This document shows positions 5,534-22,065 of a DNA stretch of 44,765 nucleotides, one piece after another; the stretch's first letter is position 1, and the number at the start of each line of letters is the position of its first letter. The notes under the pieces were generated by a model. It was not told where the DNA came from. It was given only the letters and a program-made list of their open reading frames with translations, and searched no databases. The position numbers were made by a program, and so were the translations under genes. Origin of the DNA: a virus. The stretch spans positions 1 to 44,765 of IMG/VR virus record IMGVR_UViG_3300046413_001055, one strand, 5' to 3'.

Positions 5534-8500
5534 ATGCCTAATAATTTTACTAAAAATCTATTTGCAACAACATATAGAGATGACTTTAGAGATAGCGATC
5601 ATTATCATCGCATACTTTTTAATAGCGGTAAGCAATTGCAAGCTCGTGAGCTTACGCAAATGCAAACTATTATCCAAAAAGAAGTTGAAAGATTCGGAAG
5701 AAATATATTTAAAGAAGGTGCTTCTGTTGTACCAGGAGGCATGTTTGTAAATAATAAATATGAATATGTAAAAATTGATGCAACTACTAGTCTGCCTTCT
5801 AGTACTACTTCAATGATTGACGATACATTTGTTGGTCAAACTTCAAATGTTAGTGTAAAAGTAATAGAAATTTTACCTGTTGATGCATTGACTAGTGATC
5901 CTGCTACTCTTTATATTCAATATATTAATCAAAGTTCAGGCACTATTGGCACTGCGCCAATACGATTGACTCCAGGAGAAAATATTGTTGGAACTAGTAG
6001 TGGTGTTACACTAAAAGTTCAAACCACAAATACGTCATCAAATAAAGCTGTAGGTAGAGGTACGCGGGCTTCGATGCAACGTGGTACGTTCTTTACTCAA
6101 GGACATTTTGTTCAAGCTGATGAACAATCAATCTTAGTTTCAAAATATGATTCTGCTCCAACAGAAAACGTAGGTTTTGTAGTCACACAAGATATTGTAA
6201 CGGTTAGTGATACTTTAGCTCTTTATGATAATCAAACAGCTAATCCAAATCTAACTGCTCCAGGCGCGGATCGTTATAGAATTAGGTTAACATTGAAAAA
6301 TGAGTCTGATAAAGATTCAGCTGATACATTTGTTTTCTTTGGAAAGATCCGTGATGGAGAATTAATTGAAGCAGTTAGTGGTACAAACGATTATAACAAA
6401 ATCGCTGAATTTGATGCTCTTCGTGTAAAAGAAATTAATGGAGATTTTGTAAAAAAACCATTTAGAATTAATTATGATTCTTCGTCATATTCTAACTTTA
6501 ATTTAAATGTTTCTCCAGGCACTGCTTATGTTGCTGGCTATAGAGCACACAGAGCGGATCCTACAGTAATTGAAGTACCGAAAGCTACTACATCTATTAC
6601 TATAAATGCTGAACCTGTTGGTGCAGGTTTTGGCAACTTTGTTTTAGTTGATTCTATAAATGGATTACCAAATATAGAAACTTTTGATTTGCAAAATTTA
6701 AGAAGTGTTAGGTCGTATGGTGGTTCAACAATTGGTACTGCACGTGTTAAATCGGTAGAAGAAGACGGAGCTTTAACTCGCTTCTATCTGATGGACATTA
6801 AGATGAATGCAAGTCAAAACTTTAGAGACGTAGCATCAATTGGTACAGCCGCAAATTCATTTGCTAACTTACAACTTGAAAATACCATAGCAGTTATCAA
6901 AGATGCTGCTAATAATGATTTACTGTTTGACTTTCCAGAAAATAGAGTTAAGGCAACTTCTGATGTTACACTTACAACACAAAGAAGATTAACTGCAACT
7001 ACTGATGGTAATGGTGATACTACTTTCCCTGCTCTAGCTAGTGGCGAAGTTTTTGCAAATGCAAATCAATGGGTATTTTCTGCAGTTGCTGGTGTTGCAT
7101 TCACTCCAACTACTGTCACAGGTTCTGGAACACAATCAGCGTCAATAACTGGTGGACCTGCTAGTACAGCTATAGAAGCAATTGTGCAAGTACAAAAAGA
7201 TGGTGTTACAAGAACCAAATCTCTTGCTACTCAAACAATGGCTGCAAGTATTACAAATCCTGGCGGTGGAGGACAACCATACATTAATTTAGGTAAAGCT
7301 GATATTTTTGAAGTACAAAGAATTCGTACAGTAGATTCTGATGGTAGTGATTTAAGAGCAGACTTTCTTGTTGATAATGGTCAAAGAGATAACTTCTATG
7401 AAACTGGTAAATTACTTTTAAAGACTACAGCAAAAACACCAGTTGGCAACGTGTACGTAAGATTTACATATTTTAATCACGGTGCTACTGGAGACTATTT
7501 TGATGCATCATCTTATACTGGTCAAGTCACATATGGTCAAATTCCTGATCACACAAAAGCTGATGGATCTGTAGTTTCATTAACAGATGTTTTAGATTTT
7601 AGATCTCGTAAAGATGATAACAATACTGGATTTGCTGCAGCAACTGCAAGAGTCAATGAAATTCCAGTAAATACTAGTCTAGTCACATTAGATACAGAAT
7701 ATTATTTGCCTAGATATGATAAATTAGTAATTGACCAACAAGGAATTATATCTGTAGTTCAAGGTACGCCTTCTTTAACACCAAAATTTGCAAATACTCC
7801 AGAACAAACTTTGGAATTATACCGTATCGAATTGAATGCTGGTTCAAAAAATGTAGATGATATGACAATGCGTAACATTGAAGCTAAAGGCTTTACAATG
7901 CGCGATATCCAAAAACTTGAAGATAGAGTTGATGATCTTGAAGAAGCTACTGCATTGAGTTTATTAGAAGTTGATGTACAAAACTTTTCAGTCTTTGATT
8001 CTTCAGGTACCGATAGAACAAAATCAGGATTTGTAGTTGATAATTTTTTAGATCACTCAGTATCATTTACAGCAAATTCAGAATATAAAGCATCAATTGA
8101 TCCATCAGATAGAATTATGAGACCTACATTTAATGAAGAAAATGCTCGTCTAATTTATGATTCAGATTTATCAACAAATACAGTATTAAAAGGCGATAAT
8201 GTTTATATTAAATACACAGAACAAAGTTATATTAATCAACCTGTAGTGTCACAAACTATTAACGTTAATCCATTCGCCGTTATTACTCACAGAGGTAATA
8301 TGTTCCTTTCTCCTTCATCTGATGAATGGAAAGAAACTGTTTATATTGCACCAAGAATTATTCAAGGTGGAACAAGAATTGATAGAAGTCAAGCATTTAA
8401 TTTCAACAACTGGAATTGGAATTGGGCTGGCAACCAAAGAGGCAGAGTGGTTGCACGAAGGCAAATGGGAAATATGGTTCATACTAATAGAGTAGTACGG

Positions 8501-10558
8501 GACGAAACTATTAGAGAGGTTATTGGAGATAGAGTAGTTAATGTTGCTATTATTCCATTTATGCGCTCGCGAATGGTTTTCTTCCAAGCTCAAGGATTGG
8601 GTCCTAATGTGCAAATGTGGCCATGGTTTGATGGTGTACCAGTAAACGATTGGGTTAAATCAGAAGCATTCCAAAGATTTGCTACTACATCAGATGAATA
8701 TGGAAATAGATTAAATACTGCAACACAGCATCCTAATGGTCCATCAACACTTACTACTACTCCACAAGGTTTAGTAGAAGGATCTTTCTTTATCCCATCT
8801 ACTCCAAATCTCAGATTTAGAACAGGTGAAAGAGAATTTAAACTATTAGATATTACAGCTAATAATGAAAAAGATGCTCTTTCTATTGCTAAGACAACAT
8901 TTAGTGCAGCAGGTCTTATTGAAACTCGGCAGCGAGATATTCTCTCAACCCGATTTATTACAGTTCGTGGCCAACGAGCTATGATCGATGATGGGCCAAG
9001 CGATCCACTAGCACAAACCTTTTATGTTGATAAAGTCGATGGAATATATGTTACAAGAATTAGGTTGTATTTTGCATCAAAATCTAATTCAATACCAGTA
9101 CAAGTAGAATTAAGACCAGTAGAAAATGGTCATCCGTCATCGACTACTACTATTCCTGGTTCAGTTGTTTTTGTTAATCCAGGAAATGTGACAGTTAGTA
9201 ATGATGCATCTGCTCCTACAGATTTTAGATTTGAAGAGCCTATTTTCTTAAATCCATATACTGAATATGCATTTATTGTTAAAGCAGAAACTACAGATTA
9301 TAATGTGTATATTGCAGAAACCGAACAGTTTGTTTTGAATTCTACAGAAAAGAAAGTTACAAAGCAACCAACTCTTGGTTCTTTATTCTTATCACAGAAT
9401 TCATCAACATGGGAACCTGCACAAACCAAAGATATGATGTTCCAAATCCATCAAGCACAATTTGATTTAGCTGGTGGTACGGCAGTACTAGAAAATGCTC
9501 CTATCTCTCGCAAATTAATGGATGAAAATCCACTTACATTTGATTCGGCAAGTAGCACTCTCATTGTAAATCAAAAGAATCATGGATTTATATCAGGTGA
9601 TAATGTAAAAATTTATGGACTTGATTCAGGTACTGCATATGGTGGTGGATTAGTTGGTTCAGATATTCTTGGTTCTCGCACAGTAGTTGCAGTTGATGAA
9701 GATAACTTTACAATCACATTATCAAAAACAAATCCTAGTAGCGCATTTAACTTTGGTGGCACAGCAGTAATGTCAACTCGGAATATGATGTTTGAAACAG
9801 TAGTGCCATTCGTTGAGCCACTATTGCCAATTAGCACTGGAATGACAATAAGAGGTAAATTTACTTCTGGCAAATCGCTCGCTGGAACAGAAACGCCATA
9901 TGCAAAGGATGTTGTATTTACTGATCTTGATGTTAGAGAGAATAATGTCTTTAATACACCAGCAATGATTGCAAATGCTGATTTAGAAACAAGTAACATA
10001 GGAGCTGGCGTAAAATCAGCTACTATAGAATTAGGTTTGACGACTGGCAATCCAGACGTTTCTCCTTTAATTGATATGCAAAGAGCGTCTATGTTCTTAA
10101 TTCATAATCATGTTGATATGCAAGACTCAGCTAATGCACCAGTCAATGCACCGCAACATAATACACCAATTAACTTTGTTGATGAAACTGCTGCAATCGG
10201 TGGATCACATATTGGTAAGCATATTGTAAGGCCAGTAACTCTTGAAGAAGATGCTATTGGCTTGAAGATATTACTTTCTGCTCATCGTCCATCAACAGCA
10301 GATTTTGATGTTTATTATAAAGTTGCTAATGATGGAGAAAACTTTGATGACACTCCATGGATCGAAGTTGCAAAAGAAACAGAACTACCATCAGATGAAA
10401 ATCCAACTGTGTTTAGAGATTATAGATATTTGGTAGGAGGTCAAAATGGTCTATCAACTTCTTTCTCTCGCTTCGTGATTAAAATTGTAATGAAATCTAC
10501 TAATTCTGCAAAGCCTCCAATTTTCAGAGACTTAAGAGTAATTGCATTGGCTGTATAA
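5534..10558 (+). CDS. Large DUF4815-type virion structural protein
   Basis: A 1674-residue protein preceded by AGGATGAGCG as ribosome binding site. The N-terminus (HRILFNSGKQLQARELTQMQ, residues about 25-45) is the hallmark of DUF4815 proteins of phage tails. A coiled-coil-like segment near residues 790-815 (RDIQKLEDRVDDLEEATALS) and the following TKSGFVVDNFLDHS also fit that family. The C-terminal half is beta-rich and includes QTFYVDKVDGIYVTRIRLYF and ends IFRDLRVIALAV. Its place after gp8 suggests it replaces some of the T4 gp9-gp12 baseplate-periphery proteins, none of which I recognise in this window. That functional equivalence is an inference. At least eleven DS pairs occur along its length. 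Confidence 0.82.
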   Translation: MPNNFTKNLFATTYRDDFRDSDHYHRILFNSGKQLQARELTQMQTIIQKEVERFGRNIFKEGASVVPGGMFVNNKYEYVKIDATTSLPSSTTSMIDDTFVGQTSNVSVKVIEILPVDALTSDPATLYIQYINQSSGTIGTAPIRLTPGENIVGTSSGVTLKVQTTNTSSNKAVGRGTRASMQRGTFFTQGHFVQADEQSILVSKYDSAPTENVGFVVTQDIVTVSDTLALYDNQTANPNLTAPGADRYRIRLTLKNESDKDSADTFVFFGKIRDGELIEAVSGTNDYNKIAEFDALRVKEINGDFVKKPFRINYDSSSYSNFNLNVSPGTAYVAGYRAHRADPTVIEVPKATTSITINAEPVGAGFGNFVLVDSINGLPNIETFDLQNLRSVRSYGGSTIGTARVKSVEEDGALTRFYLMDIKMNASQNFRDVASIGTAANSFANLQLENTIAVIKDAANNDLLFDFPENRVKATSDVTLTTQRRLTATTDGNGDTTFPALASGEVFANANQWVFSAVAGVAFTPTTVTGSGTQSASITGGPASTAIEAIVQVQKDGVTRTKSLATQTMAASITNPGGGGQPYINLGKADIFEVQRIRTVDSDGSDLRADFLVDNGQRDNFYETGKLLLKTTAKTPVGNVYVRFTYFNHGATGDYFDASSYTGQVTYGQIPDHTKADGSVVSLTDVLDFRSRKDDNNTGFAAATARVNEIPVNTSLVTLDTEYYLPRYDKLVIDQQGIISVVQGTPSLTPKFANTPEQTLELYRIELNAGSKNVDDMTMRNIEAKGFTMRDIQKLEDRVDDLEEATALSLLEVDVQNFSVFDSSGTDRTKSGFVVDNFLDHSVSFTANSEYKASIDPSDRIMRPTFNEENARLIYDSDLSTNTVLKGDNVYIKYTEQSYINQPVVSQTINVNPFAVITHRGNMFLSPSSDEWKETVYIAPRIIQGGTRIDRSQAFNFNNWNWNWAGNQRGRVVARRQMGNMVHTNRVVRDETIREVIGDRVVNVAIIPFMRSRMVFFQAQGLGPNVQMWPWFDGVPVNDWVKSEAFQRFATTSDEYGNRLNTATQHPNGPSTLTTTPQGLVEGSFFIPSTPNLRFRTGEREFKLLDITANNEKDALSIAKTTFSAAGLIETRQRDILSTRFITVRGQRAMIDDGPSDPLAQTFYVDKVDGIYVTRIRLYFASKSNSIPVQVELRPVENGHPSSTTTIPGSVVFVNPGNVTVSNDASAPTDFRFEEPIFLNPYTEYAFIVKAETTDYNVYIAETEQFVLNSTEKKVTKQPTLGSLFLSQNSSTWEPAQTKDMMFQIHQAQFDLAGGTAVLENAPISRKLMDENPLTFDSASSTLIVNQKNHGFISGDNVKIYGLDSGTAYGGGLVGSDILGSRTVVAVDEDNFTITLSKTNPSSAFNFGGTAVMSTRNMMFETVVPFVEPLLPISTGMTIRGKFTSGKSLAGTETPYAKDVVFTDLDVRENNVFNTPAMIANADLETSNIGAGVKSATIELGLTTGNPDVSPLIDMQRASMFLIHNHVDMQDSANAPVNAPQHNTPINFVDETAAIGGSHIGKHIVRPVTLEEDAIGLKILLSAHRPSTADFDVYYKVANDGENFDDTPWIEVAKETELPSDENPTVFRDYRYLVGGQNGLSTSFSRFVIKIVMKSTNSAKPPIFRDLRVIALAV

Positions 10559-11330: not shown

Positions 11331-12656
11331 ATGGCCGTACGTAGCCCTTTATATTATACAGATTCTGGGAATCTGAAAGAATTTAACCTTGTAGAATTGA
11401 ATGACATCTATGCGGCAGCAAAAAAATCTTTTTTGCAAAGCCCTGCTGTTCAACTTACGGTTCAAGGAAGTGGCGGAAATTTAGGCAACTTATCTGAAAC
11501 CCATGTTATAGCTTCAGCCGTAACAAATAATAGTAGAAGATTTTCTAATAATAATGGTAGCTTAGGTAATATTTCTACAACTACAGTTAATTATTCTCGT
11601 ATAGAACAAACTGTTACAAATCCTACACCTGGTCAAGGCGCAAATCCGTTTGACTTGACATTTTTGAAGAATCAGTTAGGTTCGAATTGGCCAGTATATC
11701 ATAGATTTTCAAATCCAGGTGGTGGTCATAGAGCAGGTGGAGATAGCCAAGATAGTTCAGAGTTTATACCATTTACTGATCAAGATTTCTTAGACACATT
11801 TGCTAAACCAGTTTTACAACAAGTTGCTGGTCAAAACATGACTACATTTGAACCACTTTATATAATCCATGATGCATTGACAATTGGCAATCCTCGATAT
11901 TCAATAGTAAGTAATACACCAGTTTATACTGATAATACTGCCAATATTGCCGCTTTTAATGCAGGAAATTTGCCAGAAGCTCGAACTCAAAATGTTGTAG
12001 TTAATAATTACTATTTGTATAAATTAAACACTAATAGATTGGGTCAACAATTTGTATTTGATTCAAGTGGACAAGCTAGTCCTACTGGATATAGAGATTC
12101 TGCATACAATAGAACAGTTGCAGGAACTGGATTTAAATTGAATGTTGAAAAAATAGCTGGATCTCAATATGCGACTTCTGTTAATACAGCAGGTAGCGGA
12201 TATGTAGTATCAGATAATTTTATTGTAACAGGTGAAAAATTAGGCGGTAAAAGCCCACAAAATGATTGCGCAGTTTATGTTGATGCTATTGATTCTTTTG
12301 GTGGAGTCACTTCTTTACTCGCAAACCCAACGAAAATGGGTATAGGTAATCAGTATAGACAACCTCTAACTCATACTGCGAATGGTGATTTGCAAACAAT
12401 GACTAAAACTAATTTCGAAACATTAGTTAATTATGCTATGAAAGCTCTTGCTTTTAATACTCAAGGATTTCAAGTTAGATTCCAATATAACTCTGGTACA
12501 CAATGTGGTTCATCGATGCTAGATACTCGTTTGACGGGCGCATCACAAGTAAGACGAGATCAACAGTTGCAAGATAACTATAGATCTCAAAGAGTGCCGA
12601 CTGGAGGAACAGCAACACACGTGAAGACGCACTATTTAGGAGTGAAAATAACATGA
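11331..12656 (+). CDS. Virion structural protein of unknown function
   Basis: A 441-residue protein beginning MAVRSPLYYTDSGNLKEFNL. The N-terminal 25-40 residues look helical (EFNLVELNDIYAAAKKSFLQ), and the rest is rich in Asn, Gly, Ser and Thr, as in beta-structured tail proteins. Segments such as VYHRFSNPGGGHRAGGDSQD (about residue 121) and a Gly-rich VNTAGSGYVVSDNFIVTGEK have no motif I can assign. The order (DUF4815 protein, coiled-coil protein, DS-repeat protein, this protein, then a small protein) suggests it is a virion component. The stop overlaps the next start by 4 nt (ATGA). I do not recognise a specific family. Confidence 0.6.
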   Translation: MAVRSPLYYTDSGNLKEFNLVELNDIYAAAKKSFLQSPAVQLTVQGSGGNLGNLSETHVIASAVTNNSRRFSNNNGSLGNISTTTVNYSRIEQTVTNPTPGQGANPFDLTFLKNQLGSNWPVYHRFSNPGGGHRAGGDSQDSSEFIPFTDQDFLDTFAKPVLQQVAGQNMTTFEPLYIIHDALTIGNPRYSIVSNTPVYTDNTANIAAFNAGNLPEARTQNVVVNNYYLYKLNTNRLGQQFVFDSSGQASPTGYRDSAYNRTVAGTGFKLNVEKIAGSQYATSVNTAGSGYVVSDNFIVTGEKLGGKSPQNDCAVYVDAIDSFGGVTSLLANPTKMGIGNQYRQPLTHTANGDLQTMTKTNFETLVNYAMKALAFNTQGFQVRFQYNSGTQCGSSMLDTRLTGASQVRRDQQLQDNYRSQRVPTGGTATHVKTHYLGVKIT

Positions 12657-13144
12657 TCACAGAAAATAATTTATTACAAGCCATTTTTACTAATGATGAA
12701 GGAACAAACATTCAGGCCTTTATCGAAGAAGTAGATGGCAGTATTACGAATATCAATATTCTAGTTGATGCTGATCAAGCGTTATTTCAAGAACTAATGA
12801 CTGTTTGTTCTATTGCTCAGATTGAGACTTGGACTGATAACTATTACGAAAAAATTGGTGAAGAAATTGAAGAATATCAAAGACAGTTAATTGAACAAGG
12901 AAAGATTAGTTATGTAAGAGCCACTGGGCCAGAAGATAATGCAAAAATTATGGCAGACATTGGAGCATTTTTACTTACGTATGACCCAACTAATGCTGAT
13001 CACGTAGAGAAACTATTTAATCTAAAACTGGAAATGTTTGAAATTGATGCTGTAGATTCAGCAAGCGATGTAGATAAAACTTCTCTTAGAGAATCATCAA
13101 CTCCATTTGAGGCATTAACTATTTACAATTCAATAATTACATAG
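12653..13144 (+). CDS. Unrecognised acidic protein ending the baseplate block
   Basis: A 163-residue, strongly acidic protein starting in the ATGA overlap with the upstream structural gene. It is predicted soluble, with no signal peptide or membrane segment. The centre (EKIGEEIEEYQRQLIEQGKI, about residues 65-85) is probably helical. The 3' end overlaps the convergent minus-strand gene by 8 bp, with no terminator between the two. By place and acidity it could be a small chaperone or a minor tail protein. No family was recognised. Confidence 0.5.
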   Translation: MITENNLLQAIFTNDEGTNIQAFIEEVDGSITNINILVDADQALFQELMTVCSIAQIETWTDNYYEKIGEEIEEYQRQLIEQGKISYVRATGPEDNAKIMADIGAFLLTYDPTNADHVEKLFNLKLEMFEIDAVDSASDVDKTSLRESSTPFEALTIYNSIIT

Positions 13145-13748
13145 TATAGTGTAATAGTTTGACATCAGGATTTATTTGATCTAAATAAAAATAAGAACCA
13201 GGATATTTACGATTTGCTTGAGCCAGCCATTCTTTGGTTGGCTTTTCTACCATCCGACCTACCCAAGTATCAGGCACAAATTTTAAGTCAAGTTCTTTCT
13301 TAACCATCCATTCTACAAAGTTTTCTTCTCCATTAACTGGTCCTGGTTTTGATCCTAATTCTATCCAAAAGTTTTCATAATATTCTTTATTCGACATAAA
13401 TTTTTCATAAATGTATTTAGTATCAGATGGATAAAATTTATAAAATCCTCCGTTTAATTCACAATCGCTACTATCTTCCCACCACGATCTCATACTTAAA
13501 AATTGTCCTCTTTCAATAGGATAATTTAATATGTCTTCATACTCATTTATAAGATCAATATCAATATCTAAAACTACAATTGGTTCATCGATATCAAGAT
13601 TAAAAAAATTCAATTTATTCCATTGCAGTTTTAATCCATTTTTTTCTGAATGTATTACGTGTAATCGATCTATTTTTTCTATTAGATTAATTTCATAATC
13701 AAATCCATATTTGTCGCCTATACGGCATGTATATACATCTATTGCCAT
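13137..13748 (-). CDS. GT-A-type glycosyltransferase-like protein (cassette gene 13)
   Basis: A 203-residue protein, last of the minus-strand cassette. The N-terminus (VYTCRIGDKYGFDYEINLIE) is related to those of the genes at 13739 and 16685, so the three look like paralogues. LQWNKLNFFNLD precedes VVLDIDIDLI, where D61-x-D63-x-D65 supplies a DxD-type nucleotide-sugar/metal site. NGGFYKF near residue 100 parallels the acceptor-side Asn-Gly of small GT8-like enzymes. It likely transfers a sugar from a nucleotide donor in the cytoplasm; donor and acceptor are unknown. The start overlaps the upstream gene by 10 bp. Confidence 0.65.
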   Translation of the reverse strand: MAIDVYTCRIGDKYGFDYEINLIEKIDRLHVIHSEKNGLKLQWNKLNFFNLDIDEPIVVLDIDIDLINEYEDILNYPIERGQFLSMRSWWEDSSDCELNGGFYKFYPSDTKYIYEKFMSNKEYYENFWIELGSKPGPVNGEENFVEWMVKKELDLKFVPDTWVGRMVEKPTKEWLAQANRKYPGSYFYLDQINPDVKLLHYTM

Positions 13749-14509
13749 AATTGTTTTACTTCATCATATATTTTAATTGCATCATGCAATTCGAGATTTG
13801 TGGCATCTCCAGGATCGGTGTTAAATGCACACATAATTTTATCTCTTCTAATAATATGTTTATCTAAATCATTTGGCCATTCACATCCACGATTAAACGA
13901 ATAATACATTGAAGATGGAACAAAGTCAAATAAATCTAAATGTCTTTGACTAATGAAATTATCTGTGCCACCAGTATAAATGTGATATATTTTCTCTGCA
14001 TTTTTTAAACAGTCATTCCATATATTTTCAAGTTGATTATCTTTCCACATATAAAATCCACCATTTGTGTATGCGCCATTTCTACGTTTCCAATCTGGTC
14101 TAGCCTCGTGATTTCTATTATGCCACCATGATCTACCAACTATTGGTCTATTAAACATATTGATAAGTGGTGTCATATCATTGTGTATAATCATATCAAG
14201 ATCTAAAGCTATTCTCAATCCATCCAATCCCCAACCATTTGGTTTGAAATAGTTTAGTTTTGGCCTATCCCACAAACGAGGTTTATTATTTAACCAGTTA
14301 TCTGATGCAAACATCTCGTCTGGCGTTGATTCTGGTAGGTCTCGTAGGAATGGGAGTATAGATATACGCTCATCTATTCCCTGTGCGTCCTGGGTCTGAC
14401 AATGAAATATAAATTCAAATGGCATATGTTTTTTAACCATATTGAAAAGCCGGTTGACGTATATAGGTCCATATGTTTCACCCCAACGGCTACAAAGCAC
14501 ATGGATCAT
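13739..14509 (-). CDS. GT-A-type glycosyltransferase-like protein (cassette gene 12)
   Basis: A 256-residue protein starting VLCSRWGETYGPIYVNRLFN, similar to its paralogues at 13137 and 16685. RPKLNYFKP leads into ALDLDMIIHND, giving a D103-x-D105 metal/donor motif. TNGGFYMW (about residues 148-155) and GTDNFISQ (D183) fit the acceptor and catalytic loops of GT8-like folds. It is longer than the other two, with an added C-terminal helix region ending IKIYDEVKQLWQ. The start lies in an ATGA overlap with the methyltransferase gene. Substrates are unknown; context suggests decoration of a virion or host-surface target. Confidence 0.68.
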   Translation of the reverse strand: MIHVLCSRWGETYGPIYVNRLFNMVKKHMPFEFIFHCQTQDAQGIDERISILPFLRDLPESTPDEMFASDNWLNNKPRLWDRPKLNYFKPNGWGLDGLRIALDLDMIIHNDMTPLINMFNRPIVGRSWWHNRNHEARPDWKRRNGAYTNGGFYMWKDNQLENIWNDCLKNAEKIYHIYTGGTDNFISQRHLDLFDFVPSSMYYSFNRGCEWPNDLDKHIIRRDKIMCAFNTDPGDATNLELHDAIKIYDEVKQLWQ

Positions 14510-15120
14510 TGTTTACCTATTAACATGAATCTTTTATTGTCATGATAGTCGTCAAAAGGTATTTCACCTTCATAATCTATTTTTTGAAGGCCAGTTTGGT
14601 GTACAAAGTCTTCAAGGCTGTGTACACAGTTTATGTGCGAAGTTTCTTGTAAGAAATTATTACTCTGCAGGGCACACAAACCGTTCAACTTTATATCTTT
14701 CATATGCCACATATGTTCGCATGAAGTATTGATAATAATATCAGATTCTATTTCTTCGCAATCAAAACTAACATCAGATTTTTGGGTTGTGACATCATTG
14801 CCAAACATAAACCTCGCTATAGCAAGAGCTTCTTCGTCATAATCTATAAGTCTTATTGTTTTAATGTTTGAGTAGTAATTCAATAATAAAGGTACAATAA
14901 CTGTGCCATACCATGATCCAAGTATTGTAATATTGTTTGCTGTACCAGTAACCATATATAAATGTTCTACTAGCCAAGATTTTGCCATTACTTGGTTTTT
15001 GGAAAATGATTTCGCGAAGTCATTTACACGATGAGGATATTCTTCGTTAACATGCATAATCATTGTAGAATAACGCCAGAAAGGTATCGGACATTTAGAC
15101 ATTGTTCTTGTAATATTCAA
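14506..15120 (-). CDS. Class I SAM-dependent methyltransferase-like protein (cassette gene 11)
   Basis: A 204-residue protein. ITILGSWYGT (residues 64-73) fits motif I, the glycine-rich SAM loop, although the loop is shorter in Gly than the classical GxGxG. LIDYDEEALAIA (about 91-102) has the acidic residue D93 expected to bind the SAM ribose. DIIINTSCEHM (about 127-137) takes the motif IV position. No acceptor-recognition domain is visible, so the target is open: sugar, protein side chain or small molecule. It sits between the radical SAM gene and a glycosyltransferase with overlaps of 26 and 4 bp, suggesting one pathway. Confidence 0.65.
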   Translation of the reverse strand: MNITRTMSKCPIPFWRYSTMIMHVNEEYPHRVNDFAKSFSKNQVMAKSWLVEHLYMVTGTANNITILGSWYGTVIVPLLLNYYSNIKTIRLIDYDEEALAIARFMFGNDVTTQKSDVSFDCEEIESDIIINTSCEHMWHMKDIKLNGLCALQSNNFLQETSHINCVHSLEDFVHQTGLQKIDYEGEIPFDDYHDNKRFMLIGKQ

Positions 15121-15868
15121 AACTTTCCTTTCCTAATATTTGGCCGTTTACATTGCATTTTATACATGGATTAAGTGCACGTTTGTTTTTCATTAAATTA
15201 TTTCTATACACTTTGAATTTTTCTGATTCCCATATTTTATGTATTGGTGTTTCTTGTACATAACCAAATACTTTATATTGTGACCAATCGTTACTACATA
15301 AGCCAACAGCTCCATTCCAATTAATAAACATTTTGTAAAAAGGTAAATAGCATGCTCTATTAATACTAAGCTCTTCTGATTTCTGCCAAATGTCAGTACG
15401 ATTTACTTCGACTTCTTCTGGTAAACCATCATAGTAATGCTTGTATATTCTTTCTACATGACTATACTGAGATAAGAAGGCTTCATATCTTTCACTATCA
15501 TCTACATCATACATTGATATTTTAATACAGTTGACACCAGCATCAATTAATTGAAATGCAGTTTTTTGAGTTAAAAAATCTCCGTTAGTTATTAGTTTTA
15601 TCTGTTTTAATTGTACATTATTTGAAAGCAATTGTACATGCTTTTTTAAATTTTTTTGCAATAAAGGTTCACCGAAACCTGCAAAGGTTACAGTGCCTCT
15701 ATAATCTATATCTTGTAAAGATTTATTAATTGCAATGATTGTATCATCTACCATCATTGCCTTCGTATTTTTAAATCCATGACCACGTGGACAAAATCCG
15801 CATGTTCTATTACATATATCAACAGGATTTATTTCAATCGAAGAAAGGGTGTTCTTTGTCAAGAGCAT
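15095..15868 (-). CDS. Radical SAM/SPASM protein (cassette gene 10)
   Basis: A 257-residue protein. C19, C23 and C26 (CNRTCGFC) form the Cx3Cx2C site for the SAM-binding 4Fe-4S cluster. GFGEP (about 64-68) is the usual SAM-binding segment. The C-terminal part has C173 (ACYLPF), C191 (VGLCSNDW) and C235/C238 (CIKC), in keeping with a SPASM-type auxiliary cluster domain. SPASM proteins act on peptides, proteins or small molecules. The nearest gene-order partners are an aminotransferase and a methyltransferase. The start overlaps the aminotransferase gene by 35 bp. The substrate is unknown; peptide modification of a fibre is one possibility, a sugar or nucleotide substrate another. Confidence 0.85.
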   Translation of the reverse strand: MLLTKNTLSSIEINPVDICNRTCGFCPRGHGFKNTKAMMVDDTIIAINKSLQDIDYRGTVTFAGFGEPLLQKNLKKHVQLLSNNVQLKQIKLITNGDFLTQKTAFQLIDAGVNCIKISMYDVDDSERYEAFLSQYSHVERIYKHYYDGLPEEVEVNRTDIWQKSEELSINRACYLPFYKMFINWNGAVGLCSNDWSQYKVFGYVQETPIHKIWESEKFKVYRNNLMKNKRALNPCIKCNVNGQILGKESFEYYKNNV

Positions 15869-16709
15869 TCTTAGTTACCATATTGCGGTTGATCAATGCC
15901 ATACGACAATGACCATCAAGTTCTTTTACATGAAAATGACGAGCAAATTTTTCATAATTTTTAATCAACACATAATTGGCATGTGAAGGTATACAGTCAT
16001 AATTCTTTTCTATATATGCCTTAGTAGCATTCATTCTTTTTACGTGATTCGGTATTTCATCAAGAATCGATATTAGATTGCTTTCTATTCCTGGTAATGA
16101 CACTTGTGCAGGTCTTAAATTCTGTATTTCGTTAATCAAAACTTCGTGGCCAAACGCATACCCAAACCTTGATCCTGGTAATGCTAAAGACTTACTTAAA
16201 GTTTTTAATACTAAAACATTTGGAGAACCATATTTAGCCTTTGGCATTTGCTCACAAAAATCTGCATAAGCTTCATCGATAATTACCAATTTATGTTTAG
16301 AAATTAGTTCATCGTAATCTTCTATAATTGTTCCGTTTGTGCCATGAGGATTCGCAATATAACAAACGTCGTTTCCAGTGGGTATTTGGTATAGTCTTCT
16401 ACACATTTCAACTGGAGCCCATGTATTTGGACCAGATGCAAAGCTAAATCCTTTTTCTTTTATTATAAGCATTATTCTCATGATCAGTTCGCTTAAGCCT
16501 AAACCAATAGCAATCTGACGAGCATACAAATCATAATAATCTGATAATATTTTATATGACTTACTTGTGTCTGAATATCGATTTAAATCAAACTCATATG
16601 TAGGCAGCGCTGCATCAAAACAAACGTTATTTGATAAATCTATTTTGTGTCCTGTTGGATATTGCGGCTGAGTCCAATCAGGCCTTAATTCCAATGTTTT
16701 TGTATCCAT
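15834..16709 (-). CDS. HisC-like PLP-dependent aminotransferase (cassette gene 9)
   Basis: A 291-residue fold-type I aminotransferase that resembles histidinol-phosphate aminotransferases but is shorter than the usual 350 or so. Visible landmarks are N120 (YIANPHGTNG), D145 and Y148 (IIDEAYADF), the Schiff-base lysine K173 (TLSKSLALPG) and R181 (SRFGYAFG). SHANYVLIK and a C-terminal HCRMALI with the substrate-carboxylate or phosphate arginine follow. The deletions fall in the N-terminal arm and the middle, not in catalytic residues, so it may be active. It probably moves an amino group onto a small keto substrate. A histidine biosynthesis role is unlikely because no other his gene is present. 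Confidence 0.78.
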   Translation of the reverse strand: MDTKTLELRPDWTQPQYPTGHKIDLSNNVCFDAALPTYEFDLNRYSDTSKSYKILSDYYDLYARQIAIGLGLSELIMRIMLIIKEKGFSFASGPNTWAPVEMCRRLYQIPTGNDVCYIANPHGTNGTIIEDYDELISKHKLVIIDEAYADFCEQMPKAKYGSPNVLVLKTLSKSLALPGSRFGYAFGHEVLINEIQNLRPAQVSLPGIESNLISILDEIPNHVKRMNATKAYIEKNYDCIPSHANYVLIKNYEKFARHFHVKELDGHCRMALINRNMVTKNALDKEHPFFD

Positions 16710-17293
16710 GGATCTTCCCCTAATTCATCTTGCTTTTTGTCAAGTAGAATATGTACTGATTCTGGCCTTTGTATAAGTTCATAATCATTTGGAAAACGAT
16801 GCTCAATAAAAGAATCAATACCTGTAAATATATCCATAATTTTATTTTTGTTTTTAATAAAATACTCCCAAATATGGTGTCTTTTTGTTATTTGGTTCCA
16901 CATCAAAATAGACGAATTTATGGAACAATATCTTTGTTTATTACCAATTGTGTCCATATCTAATTGTTTTAAATCTATCCAATCAGTATGAATAAATTTA
17001 GGCATTTTACCTGGATTCCATAAGTTTGTTATGTCACCAGTAATTACAGTATCAAGGTCAAAGAAACAACCTTCTTCAATAAAAGTCTCATCGAATAAAA
17101 CCATTTTGGCCCACCATTTCTCTAATCCGAAATCAGGTATTTGTATTGTATGAATATGTGAGGGTAAGGTTTTATCGTCTGTAATGCATGAGAACTTGAA
17201 ATCTCCATGGTAGTTTTTAGCTATCATGTTTTCAAGCTTGATTACAAATGTAGAGTCGTATCGAGTTCCTACTTTAACGCAATAAAAGTTCAT
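16685..17293 (-). CDS. GT-A-type glycosyltransferase-like protein (cassette gene 8)
   Basis: A 202-residue protein beginning MNFYCVKVGTRYDSTFVIKL, a paralogue of the genes at 13137 and 13739. KWWAKMVLFDE (59-69) precedes FFDLDTVITGDI with D79-x-D81 as DxD motif. INSSILMW (about 125-132) and GIDSFIEH (D160) fit the later GT8-like landmarks. It overlaps both neighbours by 20-25 bp. Soluble, without membrane segment. Donor sugar and acceptor cannot be told from the sequence. Confidence 0.7.
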   Translation of the reverse strand: MNFYCVKVGTRYDSTFVIKLENMIAKNYHGDFKFSCITDDKTLPSHIHTIQIPDFGLEKWWAKMVLFDETFIEEGCFFDLDTVITGDITNLWNPGKMPKFIHTDWIDLKQLDMDTIGNKQRYCSINSSILMWNQITKRHHIWEYFIKNKNKIMDIFTGIDSFIEHRFPNDYELIQRPESVHILLDKKQDELGEDPWIQKHWN

Positions 17294-17897
17294 GCCTATC
17301 TAACCATAGTTTGGCATGAGGTGTGTTTTTGTATTTATCAAATAAAGGTACCCCATCTGTGTAGTGTATAGCCTTTGCATCATCACATTCGTAATAACCT
17401 TCAAGACAATTCCATTCTAAAGGTATTTCACCAATCTCTTCATCCTTCAACCACTTAAACTGATGCAGCCATAATGGATTACAGTCCGCAATAAATGGAG
17501 GTCGAAGCAATCTATTAGACGGGTGACCACAGTTCCATAACATTAAAGAAGACCAATTCTTTCTTTTATATGAAGTTTGTTGTTTGCCATCCATTTTTAA
17601 ATCAGATTTTGGTTCATACTCAGGATGTTTACACACTACAACTGCATATTTAGAATCTGCGTAATGTAATAATTTTCGAACATCATCTAAAAAATAAAAA
17701 TCACTATCACAAAATAAATGCCATCCATGATATTGCATCATTTCTGGTACTAAAAATCGTGACATCGTAAAGGCTGTTGATCCATCTCTAAAAGGTAAAA
17801 ACATATTTTGAGTAGGTAATGTATCAACTGATAAAGTCGATTTGCAAACTTTATACTGAGCTTTTAATTTTTCATCCCAACCAATTATGCATTTCAT
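17274..17897 (-). CDS. Glycosyltransferase-like protein with DSD motif (cassette gene 7)
   Basis: A 207-residue protein. The first third (TAFTMSRFLVPEMMQYHGWH) leads into LFCDSDFYFLDD, where D64-x-D66 is the probable metal/nucleotide-sugar site. SSLMLWNCGH near residue 120 and AIHYTDGVPLFDKY near 180 match later segments of small phage glycosyltransferase-like proteins. The N-terminus differs from the three paralogous GTs in this cassette, so it belongs to a separate subfamily. It overlaps its upstream neighbour by 26 bp. Activity is not proven; the fold assignment comes from motif order only. Confidence 0.65.
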   Translation of the reverse strand: MKCIIGWDEKLKAQYKVCKSTLSVDTLPTQNMFLPFRDGSTAFTMSRFLVPEMMQYHGWHLFCDSDFYFLDDVRKLLHYADSKYAVVVCKHPEYEPKSDLKMDGKQQTSYKRKNWSSLMLWNCGHPSNRLLRPPFIADCNPLWLHQFKWLKDEEIGEIPLEWNCLEGYYECDDAKAIHYTDGVPLFDKYKNTPHAKLWLDRHELLLR

Positions 17898-18720
17898 CTT
17901 TTACAATCCTATCCAAATTATCATTTTGATCAACATTAAAAAATGGCACTGTCATATAACTTTGTGTGATATATTTATCGTAGTGGTCTACGTTCCATGT
18001 CATACCTAAATTTCCATTACCAAATAACACAGGTCTTTCTTGGCCATCAAGATATATCTTATGAGCTGGTGCAGATAACATAAATGTCGGAGTGTTTGTA
18101 AAAAGGGCAAGTGCTAAAAGTGTAGATCTTTCGCTAATAACATATTTACAATGAATCATATCGTTTACTAGATCTGACCACTTAGTTTTATAATCAAACA
18201 TTTTAACTTCAAGACCATTATCTTTTGCATGTTTAAATGCTTTTTCTAAAGATATTCCTCGAGTTTTTACGTGGTAACTATCAAAGCCTAATGGAAATGG
18301 CTCTTTAATCATTACATAATCACCATCTCCAATCCATTGTTTTTCGAATGGCCATAAAGATGTAAATATTTCGGTATCTTTGAATGGTATGTGTGATACA
18401 GTAGAGATTGTAAATCCTACTTCAAATTCTGGCTTTTTAAATGATTGCGTAAGAAATTTTAATCTGTCAAGATTTGTTTCAAAATCTTCTTCTTTAAATT
18501 TACCACACGCATCTTCAGATACTAAGATGAGTATATTCCATCCCATAATAAAAGTTTCATTATCTGTAAATGAATATTTTAAAGATTCATAAATTCTTTG
18601 AGCTTTTGCAAGAGACATTGCAATCTGAGAGCCTGATACTCCCAAATCCCACATATCTTTTATAAGTAGTGTATCGTCGTGATGATATGCTAGTGTTCTA
18701 TTCGAGTAAATTACATTCAT
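17872..18720 (-). CDS. Unrecognised cassette protein, possibly GT-B-like (cassette gene 6)
   Basis: A 282-residue soluble protein that I cannot place with confidence. The C-terminal half contains CKYVISERSTLLALALFTNT followed by PTFMLSAPAHKIY. This pattern, a strand, a conserved polar turn and then a helix over a shielded site, recalls the donor-binding half of GT-B glycosyltransferases or polysaccharide pyruvyltransferases. The N-terminal half has no clear nucleotide-binding motif. It lies between the glycosyltransferases and the P-loop gene, with overlaps of 23-26 bp. A sugar-transfer or sugar-modifying role is inferred from context alone. Confidence 0.45.
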   Translation of the reverse strand: MNVIYSNRTLAYHHDDTLLIKDMWDLGVSGSQIAMSLAKAQRIYESLKYSFTDNETFIMGWNILILVSEDACGKFKEEDFETNLDRLKFLTQSFKKPEFEVGFTISTVSHIPFKDTEIFTSLWPFEKQWIGDGDYVMIKEPFPLGFDSYHVKTRGISLEKAFKHAKDNGLEVKMFDYKTKWSDLVNDMIHCKYVISERSTLLALALFTNTPTFMLSAPAHKIYLDGQERPVLFGNGNLGMTWNVDHYDKYITQSYMTVPFFNVDQNDNLDRIVKDEMHNWLG

Positions 18721-19279
18721 TTAATACTATATCAATCGCTGCATTATATTGTTCAAGGGTACCATCATTATTCATATGGTAATCTGCATTAGATTCTAAC
18801 CAACTTACGTCAGCTGCATGTGATTCTATTTCTTTTATATATTCTGGTTTTACTAACTGATAAGAATTAGATTTTCCAATTAATCGAGGATCACGTATTT
18901 TTTCTCTAGCAAATAGACGTTCGCACTGTGTATCAATTGGTGCAGATACAATAAGTACATTATGATTATCACTAGATTTATTTTCTACTATCCATCTGCC
19001 AAATTCTGGTGTGCATTGAGTCCACACAGGCCGATCAATAAGAAATTTCATCAAATAATCATATAACGCAGGAAACTGTGATTCTAATTCTTCGATCATG
19101 CTATCAATATTTGTTTCACTAAAGAACGGCCCAGAAATAGGATCATAAGTTGATTTCATTGTACGACGATGAGTAATATAAATTTTATATAAATTATCAC
19201 TTGCAATGTTGTGGTAATCGCATCGTTGTTCGAACGTATTTACGCCAGATCCTTGTGTACCGCAAATAATAAGTGCCAT
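18698..19279 (-). CDS. P-loop kinase-like protein with altered Walker A (cassette gene 5)
   Basis: A 193-residue protein with an N-terminal strand-loop LIICGTQGSGVNTFE where a Walker A motif belongs. The expected lysine of GxxxxGK(S/T) is valine (V13 by count) and the next position is Asn. The rest resembles dephospho-CoA or dNMP kinases: VLIVSAPIDTQCERLFAR with an arginine-rich lid, and the late NADYHMNNDGTLEQYNAAID that closes these folds. Either it binds a nucleotide unusually or it is a non-catalytic relative. The start is supported by the P-loop immediately after it and by a one-base overlap with the upstream gene. Confidence 0.6.
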   Translation of the reverse strand: MALIICGTQGSGVNTFEQRCDYHNIASDNLYKIYITHRRTMKSTYDPISGPFFSETNIDSMIEELESQFPALYDYLMKFLIDRPVWTQCTPEFGRWIVENKSSDNHNVLIVSAPIDTQCERLFAREKIRDPRLIGKSNSYQLVKPEYIKEIESHAADVSWLESNADYHMNNDGTLEQYNAAIDIVLNECNLLE

Positions 19280-20004
19280 TAAAGTCTCCTATCCATCATC
19301 GTATCATATGCATCGATTGTTAAACCAATAAAGAATTGGTATACATTATCACCTGTTGCAAATGCTTCGTGTATTAATGATGAATCAAATATGTAAATCT
19401 TTCCAGGTTTGATACTATTTATAACCTTTCCATCCATTTTTAACTGCATATTTGCTGATGTTGTTCCCCACAATCTTAAGTTTGGAGAAGGAACTTTAAC
19501 ATCGACATGGGCTTTGAAATGCCCCATAGTATCCCATTTTAATATTGCGCTTCTACACAAATAATCACCAAACACGTCTATTAGCGGCGATAGAGAAGGC
19601 ATATTGCATACTTCAGTTTTTTCTAATATATCATGGTCAAATAATATTTTATCGATATTTTGATGTAACATAAAATGTTCATCGAGTGGCATACGAGATG
19701 GATCATTTATTTCATCTAGTTTACCAGTTAAATTAACAAGAGGTATTCCAAATCTTGGATAAGATGTGTGAGTATTTCCCCATTGAGTAAACTCGTGGCT
19801 ATATTTTTCGATGTCTTTATCGAATTGATTTAAATCGATATCGATATCGGTTTCTACGATTGGACTAGTATGTAACTCTTCATACCTTTCTTCTTCCACA
19901 GCTGGCAAAGAAATATATTTAAATATCATAGCCATTAATTTATCTTCAGGTTGACCTTCAAGATGTGGATGTGTTTTAAATAGTTGATCTAATGCTTCTT
20001 TCAT
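19279..20004 (-). CDS. 2-oxoglutarate/Fe(II) hydroxylase-like protein (cassette gene 4)
   Basis: A 241-residue protein with an Asp/Asn beta-hydroxylase-like core in the C-terminal half. H166-x-D168 (GHFKAHVDVK) and H212 (FDSSLIHEAFA) are the likely iron ligands, and KPGKIYIFDSS is the strand before the distal His. The distal basic residue for 2-oxoglutarate is not obvious after H212, unlike in the next two genes. The N-terminal 100 residues carry no recognised domain. The start overlaps the upstream 2OG gene by 4 bp. Substrate is unknown; protein side-chain hydroxylation is favoured by family resemblance. Confidence 0.62.
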   Translation of the reverse strand: MKEALDQLFKTHPHLEGQPEDKLMAMIFKYISLPAVEEERYEELHTSPIVETDIDIDLNQFDKDIEKYSHEFTQWGNTHTSYPRFGIPLVNLTGKLDEINDPSRMPLDEHFMLHQNIDKILFDHDILEKTEVCNMPSLSPLIDVFGDYLCRSAILKWDTMGHFKAHVDVKVPSPNLRLWGTTSANMQLKMDGKVINSIKPGKIYIFDSSLIHEAFATGDNVYQFFIGLTIDAYDTMMDRRL

Positions 20005-20522
20005 TGCGTCATCCTTGCATAGTATTGTCGCATTACAGCACTAGCTTTTAAGCAAACTGTAAAATGAATTCGAGGAGTTTTGCCTAAATTCATAGCTGTG
20101 TGTTTATTTGTAGTGTGCAGTTGATATGTATTACCAACTTCTGGCATTTTAAATATTTTATCATTTACAATAAACAACGCGTCCTCGTTTGTGGTCAATG
20201 GGATATGAATTCTATCAGTTATATCGTAATGATATGAATATCCTCTAAAACTTTCATCGAGAGTCATATATCTACCTCGACAAATATCGTACTTTTCGTT
20301 TAGATCGTTATAAACTTCTTCAGCATAGGTATTTTTAAAAAAATCATTTATAACAGTAAAATCATTTTGGTCTAGTTTATATTTTGTAAGATCTCCAGAA
20401 TTGAATGAATATCTTTTACCATCTATAGAACTAACATGAATTTGTTGGCCGAGTTCTTCTAGTCCGACAATACAATCTAATAATTTTTTAGAATCGTATC
20501 TATCTTTTAATTCTGTAAGCAT
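20001..20522 (-). CDS. 2-oxoglutarate/Fe(II) hydroxylase, Asp/Asn hydroxylase-like (cassette gene 3)
   Basis: A 173-residue protein whose C-terminal half contains YSYHYDITDRIHIPLTTNED, with H98-x-D100 as the iron facial pair. H141 (TNKHTAMNLG) is the third ligand and R151 (TPRIHFTV) the 2-oxoglutarate anchor. The strand pattern RIHIPL ... FIVNDKIFKMPEVGNTYQL is typical of aspartyl/asparaginyl beta-hydroxylase-like enzymes. All key residues are present, so activity is plausible. It overlaps its neighbours by 4 and 16 bp. Likely substrates are Asp or Asn in a protein, but small molecules cannot be excluded. Confidence 0.75.
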   Translation of the reverse strand: MLTELKDRYDSKKLLDCIVGLEELGQQIHVSSIDGKRYSFNSGDLTKYKLDQNDFTVINDFFKNTYAEEVYNDLNEKYDICRGRYMTLDESFRGYSYHYDITDRIHIPLTTNEDALFIVNDKIFKMPEVGNTYQLHTTNKHTAMNLGKTPRIHFTVCLKASAVMRQYYARMTQ

Positions 20523-20968
20523 TTAATAATCTCTTCGTATGTAGTTTCAAAATATGAAATCTTGAATAGGTATCTATCTTTTTTACCTAAGTTGTTAACA
20601 CCATGCATTTTTGTTGTATCAAGTACTGCAGTATTATATGTAAATTCTCCGTATTCGTTAAAGGTAACTGGTGCAGCTTCGTCATTTAAAATGTGGTTTA
20701 TTGAGCATGTGGTGTTGTAGTCAATATGAGGCAGTAATACTGAATTTGCATCAAGGTGATAATATCTCGGAGAACCATATGGTAATTTAAATTGATTGCA
20801 AAAGAATTGCATTTCTCTTTCAGCCCATCTGACAGTTTGATTTATGATTTTCCAATTATCATATGATCCATGTTTTTCGTCAGCATAAACTGTAGGATCT
20901 TGACTTTTCAATTCTTCTAATAATCTTACGTCGTCAAAATTATGTTGTATTTCGTAAACTGGCTTCAT
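20507..20968 (-). CDS. 2-oxoglutarate/Fe(II) hydroxylase-like protein (cassette gene 2)
   Basis: A compact 153-residue protein. LLPHIDYNTTCSINHIL gives H81-x-D83, TKMHGVNNLG gives H122, and KKDRYLFKISYF gives R132, in the order and spacing expected of a minimal double-stranded beta-helix oxygenase. A YHLDANS segment precedes the HxD. It is distinct in sequence from the two following genes, so the three are not a recent tandem duplication. It overlaps both neighbours (16 and 29 bp). The substrate is unknown. Confidence 0.7.
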   Translation of the reverse strand: MKPVYEIQHNFDDVRLLEELKSQDPTVYADEKHGSYDNWKIINQTVRWAEREMQFFCNQFKLPYGSPRYYHLDANSVLLPHIDYNTTCSINHILNDEAAPVTFNEYGEFTYNTAVLDTTKMHGVNNLGKKDRYLFKISYFETTYEEIIKCLQN

Positions 20969-21581
20969 AATTCATCCTTAGTGCGTGTTCATCATATGAC
21001 ATTACCTTTGGATTCCAATCTTTAAATTGAAATTCTTTATATGTTATATAGATGATATTTTGATAACAAGAGGCCAGATTACCCTCATGAACTTGTACTA
21101 ATCCATTATCATAGCTTTTCCAACGTTTATTCAATGAATGTATCATAGTAGTAAACGCTTTCCACCATAATTGTCTCCCGGCTTTTTTAGAATTTCTCTG
21201 TTGCATACTAATAAAATATAATTTATAATTTAATTTAAAAAGTTCCCTCATAGATCCATTCATAAATCGTAAAGCAGATATTAATTCTTCACGCTTCGAC
21301 CATGGTCCACGAGATTTTGGAAAAAGATACCATCTATTAAATATGCGACATACATTAGGGGTGTATTCTTTTACTCCAGCCATGGCAATAGGTTCATTGT
21401 CAAATCCGTATTGAATAGCAAAAAATACGTGGTCAGAAATTTTTAATTTTTCTTTTGTATAATTTTCTCTTAGTTTATTATTTGTATCAGTTAAACATAA
21501 AGTTCGAACTCTTTCAAATTCTTCATTATCATAGTCAAAGACCCAAAGATACCCAGCATCATTTTCTATTTTTTTATTCAC
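20940..21581 (-). CDS. Possible GNAT-type acyltransferase, first gene of the cassette (cassette gene 1)
   Basis: A 213-residue protein starting with GTG. The start is supported by a strong Shine-Dalgarno, AAGGAGGG on the minus strand, 12 bases upstream of it. The segment ISDHVFFAIQYGFDNEPIAM followed by AGVKEYTPNVCRIFNRWYLF resembles the central strands of GNAT acyltransferases, and RELFKLNYKLYFISMQQRN could follow as the next helix-strand. I see no clear acetyl-CoA Q/RxxGxG/A loop, so the call is weak. As the promoter-proximal gene it would be the most strongly translated of the cassette. Confidence 0.45.
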   Translation of the reverse strand: MNKKIENDAGYLWVFDYDNEEFERVRTLCLTDTNNKLRENYTKEKLKISDHVFFAIQYGFDNEPIAMAGVKEYTPNVCRIFNRWYLFPKSRGPWSKREELISALRFMNGSMRELFKLNYKLYFISMQQRNSKKAGRQLWWKAFTTMIHSLNKRWKSYDNGLVQVHEGNLASCYQNIIYITYKEFQFKDWNPKVMSYDEHALRMNYEASLRNTT

Positions 21582-21645
21582 GGGTACTTCTTCCCTCCTT
21601 AACTAATACTACTTATTATACCATAAAATGAGCTCTTTGTACATG

Positions 21646-21675: not shown

Positions 21676-21687
21676 TATTTATAAATA
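21676..21687. promoter_or_regulatory. Palindromic bidirectional late promoter TATTTATAAATA
   Basis: The 12 bases are a perfect inverted repeat. Read on the plus strand, TATAAATA occupies 21680-21687 and faces the fibre genes; on the minus strand, TATAAATA occupies 21683-21676 and faces the thirteen-gene cassette. Both copies share four bases, so the two directions probably compete for one initiation complex. The plus copy continues as TATAAATAGATCAAG, identical over 15 bases to the promoter at 24126. Confidence 0.7.
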
Positions 21688-21714: not shown

Positions 21715-22065
21715 ATGGCACAGTACGAACATTTTAGGTTTGATCAAGGCTCAGATATAGCGGTAGAGCTACACCTTGTCGATCCCTCAGGTAATAAGAA
21801 AAATTTAACAAATTATTCGAGTGCAGCTACAATGAAGCGCAATTTCAATAGTGATAGCGCTGATACTCAAGCTTTTGCTGTAGCTATTAATACTCCAACT
21901 ACTGATGGCATTATCACAATGTCACTCACAAATGTTGAAACCAGTGCCCTTAAAAAGGGAAATTATGTTTATGATGTAGAAATTACCTATGTTGATTCTA
22001 ATCAAGCAACAATTACCGAGAGAATTTTAGAAGGTAAAATTGTGGTTGCGCCATCAGTAACGTAA
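21715..22065 (+). CDS. Small beta-sandwich virion protein (baseplate-upper-protein-like)
   Basis: A 116-residue protein led by two late promoters and GGGTGGAAC as ribosome binding site. It starts with YEHFRFDQGSDIAVELHLVD, and the end (GNYVYDVEITYVDSNQATIT then ERILEGKIVVAPSVT) matches the Ig-like domain found at the N-terminus of BppU-type baseplate proteins and in short structural proteins of marine T4-like phages. One DSADTQAF motif is present. It is probably an adaptor or decoration protein that starts the fibre gene block. Confidence 0.6.
   Translation: MAQYEHFRFDQGSDIAVELHLVDPSGNKKNLTNYSSAATMKRNFNSDSADTQAFAVAINTPTTDGIITMSLTNVETSALKKGNYVYDVEITYVDSNQATITERILEGKIVVAPSVT

Follow-up and report, generated by a model that had tools for sequence, protein, structure and literature searches.

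The 44,765-base window analysed here (IMG/VR record IMGVR_UViG_3300046413_001055, complete as a virus record and probably a genome fragment) carries a cassette of thirteen minus-strand genes at 13137-21581, between the baseplate/VrlC and tail-fibre genes. The cassette is kept as a unit in related viral contigs, and it includes a BtrN-like radical S-adenosylmethionine (SAM) enzyme and a HisC-like aminotransferase that together predict the conversion of a sugar hydroxyl to an amine. We interpret the cassette, with moderate confidence, as an early operon driven by host sigma-70, whose enzymes would build and tailor a glycan in the cytoplasm and would most likely act on the host envelope.

A conserved gene set at an insertion hotspot

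The thirteen open reading frames, of 153-291 amino acids, tile the interval, and neighbours overlap by 1-35 nt. Frames of at least 150 amino acids number 13 on the minus strand and 0 on the plus strand (Markov-1 null mean, 0.005), and when the window is compared with its closest relatives, the ratio of non-synonymous to synonymous substitution rates (dN/dS) lies at 0.00-0.29 for each of the 13 genes. All are under purifying selection, and the excess of minus-strand frames together with these ratios identifies them as real, selected genes. The thirteen overlapping genes described in an earlier note, made by a model from the letters alone, are thus borne out, as are the strong Shine-Dalgarno sequence at the start (AGGAGG, 12 nt upstream of the GTG of gene 1) and the 8-bp overlap with a tail gene, which is formed by gene 13 and the convergent plus-strand gene at 12653-13144. 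The G+C content at 13001-21000 is 0.30-0.35, and that of the adjoining upstream genes about 0.35-0.36. A phrog_358 match at 5534-10558 takes the position that the VrlC protein has next to gp8 in HTVC008M, and fibre-type genes then follow.

Four other viral contigs carry all thirteen genes in identical order and at the same site; of these, L003 is near-identical to the window while L005, L012 and L013 show per-gene identities of 40-79%. Three more (L002, L004 and L006) carry as much of the cassette as the contig can hold. Most cassette genes are 60-79% identical between the window and L005, whereas the flanking s_441 and s_163 reach only 58 and 48%, a difference that we count in favour of the glycan-tailoring interpretation. 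The distant contigs L026 and L028-L031 retain the downstream block of genes 8-11-12-13 adjoining the convergent gene, with the remainder swapped. L028 still has the aminotransferase-radical SAM pair; L026, L029 and L030 lack it and have QueC-like, other radical SAM or ketoacyl synthase genes in its place. Even remoter viral contigs have, at a similar site, nothing of the cassette but homologues of genes 11 and 13 and of the 2-oxoglutarate (2OG) hydroxylase genes. Since the full set is kept in some contigs and swapped in others, the site is best described as a hotspot, and the 13-gene set as a stable module within it. The dedicated set of modifying enzymes next to tail genes that the earlier note had proposed is therefore a conserved unit and not a scatter of singletons.

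Two features of the sister cassettes are recorded here. QueC-like ATP pyrophosphatase genes (L026:7139-7741 and L028:2190-2729) replace or join the pair, and a FabF-like ketoacyl synthase (L030:1057-2193) is the first gene of its cassette, which suggests an acyl-type modification.

A BtrN-like dehydrogenase paired with a HisC-like aminotransferase

Gene 10 (15095-15868, minus strand, like all cassette genes below) matches BtrN (4m7s/4m7t) over its full length, with E values of 1e-23 for the single sequence and 6e-32 for the profile. The radical SAM protein with a SPASM domain named in the earlier note can accordingly be refined to a BtrN-like radical SAM/twitch protein, a putative sugar-alcohol dehydrogenase. 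The CX3CX2C cysteines C19, C23 and C26 are invariant in 12 sequences, and so are the auxiliary-cluster cysteines C173, C191, C235 and C238, which align with those of BtrN; the auxiliary cluster of MoaA has three cysteines (PMC9012708), whereas gene 10 has four. Gene 10 and BtrN, the 2-deoxy-scyllo-inosamine dehydrogenase of butirosin synthesis, thus share the 3+4 pattern of cluster cysteines, and the butirosin pathway, like the cassette, contains aminotransferase steps. However, gene 10 is a distant homologue, and its partner is HisC-like and not the butirosin aminotransferase.

This partner, gene 9 (15834-16709), encodes a shortened fold-I aminotransferase of 291 amino acids that matches PF00155 (1e-13) and HisC-like structures in the PDB (2e-9). 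Its pyridoxal phosphate (PLP) catalytic set, Asp145, Tyr148, Lys173, Arg181 and Arg269, is invariant in 11 phage sequences. Its score against the curated HisC equivalog (87.6 bits) falls far under the cut-off of 276.6, and we therefore call it HisC-like, not HisC. Together, genes 10 and 9 predict the sequence C-OH to C=O to C-NH2 on a sugar.

The pair recurs well beyond the cassette. Among the best 80 radical SAM loci, the two genes are adjacent, in either order, in 19 of the 24 viral clusters that have both, and gene 7 appears as a recurrent partner, sharing a locus with the radical SAM gene in 20 of 42 radical SAM clusters. The distance matrices of the two proteins correlate (r=0.69; 0 of 5000 permutations), with shared phage ancestry contributing to the correlation. 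Nine phage clusters add a PIG-L deacetylase, a DegT aminotransferase and an epimerase, together with an amidinotransferase for which the inosamine-phosphate amidinotransferase (StrB1-type, 1.7e-59) is the best structural relative. The isolated phage S-SCSM2R has the aminotransferase followed by the radical SAM gene ahead of a long tail fibre, and Campylobacter phage WX1 has BtrN, aminotransferase and amidinotransferase genes between a baseplate hub and a tail protein.

In bacteria, most of the relatives of the pair that were found lie on SAR11 chromosomes. One such locus (L137) has genes of the GDP-mannose 4,6-dehydratase, NTP transferase, CTP_transf_3 and dehydroquinate (DHQ) synthase types; another (L145) has genes for a CDP-glucose 4,6-dehydratase, a glucose-1-phosphate cytidylyltransferase-like protein and a LegC aminotransferase. 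It is mainly because these counterparts sit in nucleotide-sugar loci that we read the pair as sugar chemistry.

Three side observations concern these loci. The S-SCSM2R SPASM gene (L010:15866-16606; PQ898602) is annotated from 16031, which omits the radical SAM motif, and its frame is open from 15866. In L137, L145 and other SAR11 loci, the BtrN-like gene adjoins the HisC-like gene and a recurrent protein of ~450 amino acids that has no Pfam match. A deoxy-inosose synthase in SAR11 was considered and rejected, the DHQ-synthase-like gene being closer to true DHQ synthases.

The aminoglycoside-like phage module at L017:39-10942, present also in L180, L184, L185, L192, L197, L201, L210 and L227, has shuffled gene orders and contains a glycosyltransferase, the BtrN-like enzyme, the aminotransferase, PIG-L, DegT, an epimerase and the inosamine-phosphate amidinotransferase homologue. 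We tentatively propose that a mobile, reshufflable pathway for amino- and guanidino-sugars is common to unrelated phages. Its members would be a glycosyltransferase, the BtrN-like dehydrogenase and the HisC-like aminotransferase, often with PIG-L, DegT, an epimerase and an amidinotransferase of the inosamine-phosphate type, and its aminoglycoside-like chemistry would serve in lytic infection to decorate either host envelopes or the adhesins of the phages themselves. Of the marine forms of this pathway, the 13-gene cassette would be the most stable.

The homology to BtrN, and the StrB1-type amidinotransferase and PIG-L of the nine sister modules, could also point to a free aminoglycoside- or aminocyclitol-like molecule used in warfare or signalling. 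We regard this as highly improbable: a sugar cyclase, a transporter and a resistance gene are all missing from the cassette in the window, its four glycosyltransferase-like genes fit a polymer better, and secretion would gain a lytic phage little.

Predicted timing and target

An extended -10 promoter of the sigma-70 type (TGTACA-17-TATAAT with TG; 21615-21643, minus strand) lies upstream of gene 1. No other strict extended -10/-35 match exists in the window, where 0.07 are expected, and in L003, L005, L012, L013 and L030 the site is kept, directly ahead of the first gene of the cassette. Next to it, the palindrome TATTTATAAATA (21676-21687, no strand assigned) holds a T4-type late motif directed toward the tail-fibre assembly gene at 21715-22065, and this motif is kept in L003, L005, L012 and L013. 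On the plus strand, TATAAATA stands upstream, with the motif start 34-54 bp before the start codon, in four of six cases (virion genes at 2360, 21715, 24180 and 39139), against 2.2% of positions; by its number alone the motif shows no enrichment (9 in the window against 8.1 expected), and only its placement is unusual. In cyanomyoviruses, early genes have sigma-70-like promoters and late genes have NATAAATA (PMC2984593). These rules for T4-like cyanophages, combined with the contrast of motifs, predict that the cassette is expressed early and the virion genes late.

In the proposed pathway, the glycosyltransferases (genes 7, 8, 12 and 13) would extend a glycan from host nucleotide sugars, and the BtrN-like enzyme would oxidize a hydroxyl group of the ring to a ketone, from which the PLP aminotransferase would make an amine. 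Gene 1 might then acylate the new amine, and the product might be methylated by the methyltransferase and hydroxylated by the 2OG enzymes. Of all these steps, the acceptor is the least certain; the most likely one would be a host envelope polysaccharide (lipopolysaccharide (LPS)/O-chain), whose early remodelling could block adsorption of competing or progeny phages. A host-surface role has already been published for the same type of island (PMC7029224), and a similar suggestion was made for the LPS genes of P-SSM2 (PMC2984593).

The earlier note had placed virion modification first, with the same glycan chemistry acting on the phage's own tail-fibre or baseplate proteins and tuning adsorption or masking. 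The cassette enzymes are soluble, and several unrelated groups of phages have the module beside tail genes, WX1 and S-SCSM2R among them. In L016-L018 it lies directly upstream of fibre genes, and in L177 and L210 it adjoins tail-collar genes. This recurrent adjacency keeps the virion interpretation alive, but we consider it less likely. The conserved sigma-70-type promoter ahead of the cassette, set against the late motifs at virion genes, and the SAR11 counterparts in nucleotide-sugar clusters favour the host envelope. In L016-L018 a late motif stands between the enzyme genes and the fibres, and some copies are far from tail genes (L175, near ligase and helicase genes). Furthermore, adjacency to tail genes is explained by the nature of the region alone, a general insertion hotspot (PMC7029224).

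Several points weigh against the envelope interpretation. The 13-gene cassette lacks a membrane protein, a flippase and a polymerase, so that host machinery must be borrowed, and nucleotide-sugar synthesis genes are also missing from it. The highest 19-residue hydropathy mean in the 13 proteins is 1.83 (residues 65-83 of gene 9, which belongs to a soluble enzyme family), and none is a clear membrane protein; phage seroconversion of the gtr type, in contrast, has a membrane flippase and a bactoprenol glucosyltransferase. The usual substrates of HisC-type aminotransferases are not sugars but small phosphorylated compounds or amino acids. If the role were purely host-directed, the frequent position of the module beside tail-fibre or baseplate genes in the unrelated phages named above would not be expected. 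Finally, the promoters are sequence motifs, and the host of the phage is one that we infer.

Other genes of the cassette

Gene 1 (20940-21581, GTG start), left nameless in the earlier note, is a GNAT-fold acyltransferase by its predicted structure: the AlphaFold2 model (predicted local distance difference test, pLDDT, 62) has 174 PDB matches at E<1e-3, and acetyltransferases make up all 50 of the 50 listed. Three putative 2OG-Fe(II) hydroxylases follow. H81, D83 and H122 (gene 2 numbering) are invariant across genes 2-4 and kept in distant relatives. Gene 2 (20507-20968) has the HxD...H and R motif and no Pfam match. Genes 3 (20001-20522) and 4 (19279-20004) resemble Asp_Arg_Hydrox (PF05118), with gene 3 slightly under the curated cut-off (E=4.5e-4) and gene 4 giving a weak match (E=0.026) with a conserved HxD...H.

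Gene 5 (18698-19279) is kinase-like, and all its matches to dephospho-CoA kinase are sub-threshold; it evolves fastest in the cassette (dN/dS 0.24-0.29). In its degenerate Walker A motif, GTQGSGVNT, the lysine is lost, and for this reason an active kinase is rejected for the window copy. Gene 6 (17872-18720) may be glycosyltransferase-like, as one distant relative (n=1) has a sub-threshold GT61 match; its predicted structure is poor (pLDDT 44). Profile searches of the PDB gave nothing convincing for genes 5, 6, 7 and 11, with gene 6 lacking any match.

Four genes are candidate GT-A glycosyltransferases, each with an invariant DxD. Gene 8 (16685-17293) matches the glycosyltransferase family phrog_1962 (4e-12), and gene 12 (13739-14509) is a relative of the gene 8 profile (hhalign 94%, E 1e-7). 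Gene 7 (17274-17897) matches GT8 under the cut-off (E=0.023) and the functionally unannotated family phrog_28018 (7e-44), and gene 13 (13137-13748) shows weak similarity to gene 8; both are plausible glycosyltransferases, mainly on account of the DxD. Gene 11 (14506-15120) is class I SAM methyltransferase-like (LGSWYGT...IDYD). It belongs to a widespread viral family with the motif IINTSCEH, members of which occur in at least 529 viral stretches; it has no Pfam or PDB match, and its relative in phage Mosig is annotated as a methyltransferase. Remote relatives of genes 8, 11, 12 and 13 matched no family in Pfam scans. PADLOC returned 0 matches for the ten proteins tried, which leaves a defence-system role unsupported.

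The enzyme names of the earlier note therefore stand for the radical SAM protein, the aminotransferase and the 2OG motifs; its P-loop protein is degenerate, and of its four GT-A-like glycosyltransferases genes 8 and 12 are supported and genes 7 and 13 plausible. In all, about nine of the thirteen genes can be assigned to a family; gene 6 is not one of them.

This mix of hydroxylase, glycosyltransferase, radical SAM, PLP, kinase-like and acyltransferase proteins resembles the neighbourhoods of base-hypermodification genes, and the related cassettes of L026 and L028 encode QueC-like proteins. It is nevertheless improbable that the enzymes act on a base of the phage DNA. The 13 proteins gave no Pfam match to TET/JBP, C5-methyltransferase or hydroxymethylase, the 2OG genes resemble Asp/Arg hydroxylases, gene 5 lacks the Walker lysine, and the bacterial relatives of the pair lie in nucleotide-sugar loci. 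In addition, no evidence of glycosylated DNA has been reported in marine cyanomyoviruses (PMC2984593).

Relation to known systems and significance

The island class is already known. The pelagimyophage host recognition cluster (HRC), between VrlC and gp14 (PMC7029224), shares with the cassette its place next to VrlC as well as glycosyltransferases, radical SAM cassettes and tail fibres, and the host-surface hypothesis was proposed there. However, the HRC was described as non-syntenic and hypervariable, whereas the 13 genes keep their order across contigs despite their divergence, with a named OH-to-NH2 pair and a sigma-70-type promoter of their own. At the same baseplate-adjacent site, the island of Pelagibacter phage Mosig EXVC030M (MT647606, 54.7-71.3 kb) shares GNAT, Asp_Arg_Hydrox and homologues of the methyltransferase (gene 11) and glycosyltransferase (gene 13), but has a DegT/ArnB-type aminotransferase, MoaA-like radical SAM proteins and a carbamoyltransferase in place of the BtrN/HisC pair. 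The interchangeable module of Campylobacter phages CP220/CPt10/WX1 (PMC2853527) is likewise known. It shares the BtrN-like protein, a class I/II aminotransferase homologous to gene 9 and the tail-gene neighbourhood; it differs in having several radical SAM genes and an amidinotransferase, and it was published as a metabolic, low-oxygen module and not as glycan tailoring.

What appears to be new, in that it was not found in the open-licence literature searched, is the conserved 13-gene set (as the earlier note had surmised, although the island type and the host-surface idea were in print), the BtrN/HisC-like OH-to-NH2 step, the link to SAR11 and to the amidinotransferase modules, and the promoter contrast.

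For years, sugar-type genes have been catalogued in the tail regions of marine phages with no chemical hypothesis attached. From the pair, a single testable product can be predicted: a ring amine derived from an alcohol. As the pair is common to SAR11-type chromosomes and phages, the choice between host surface and virion can be tested in cultured systems (Mosig/HTCC1062 and S-SCSM2R/WH7803). If the interpretation is true, antibiotic-like sugar chemistry would be run by lytic phages at an oceanic scale.

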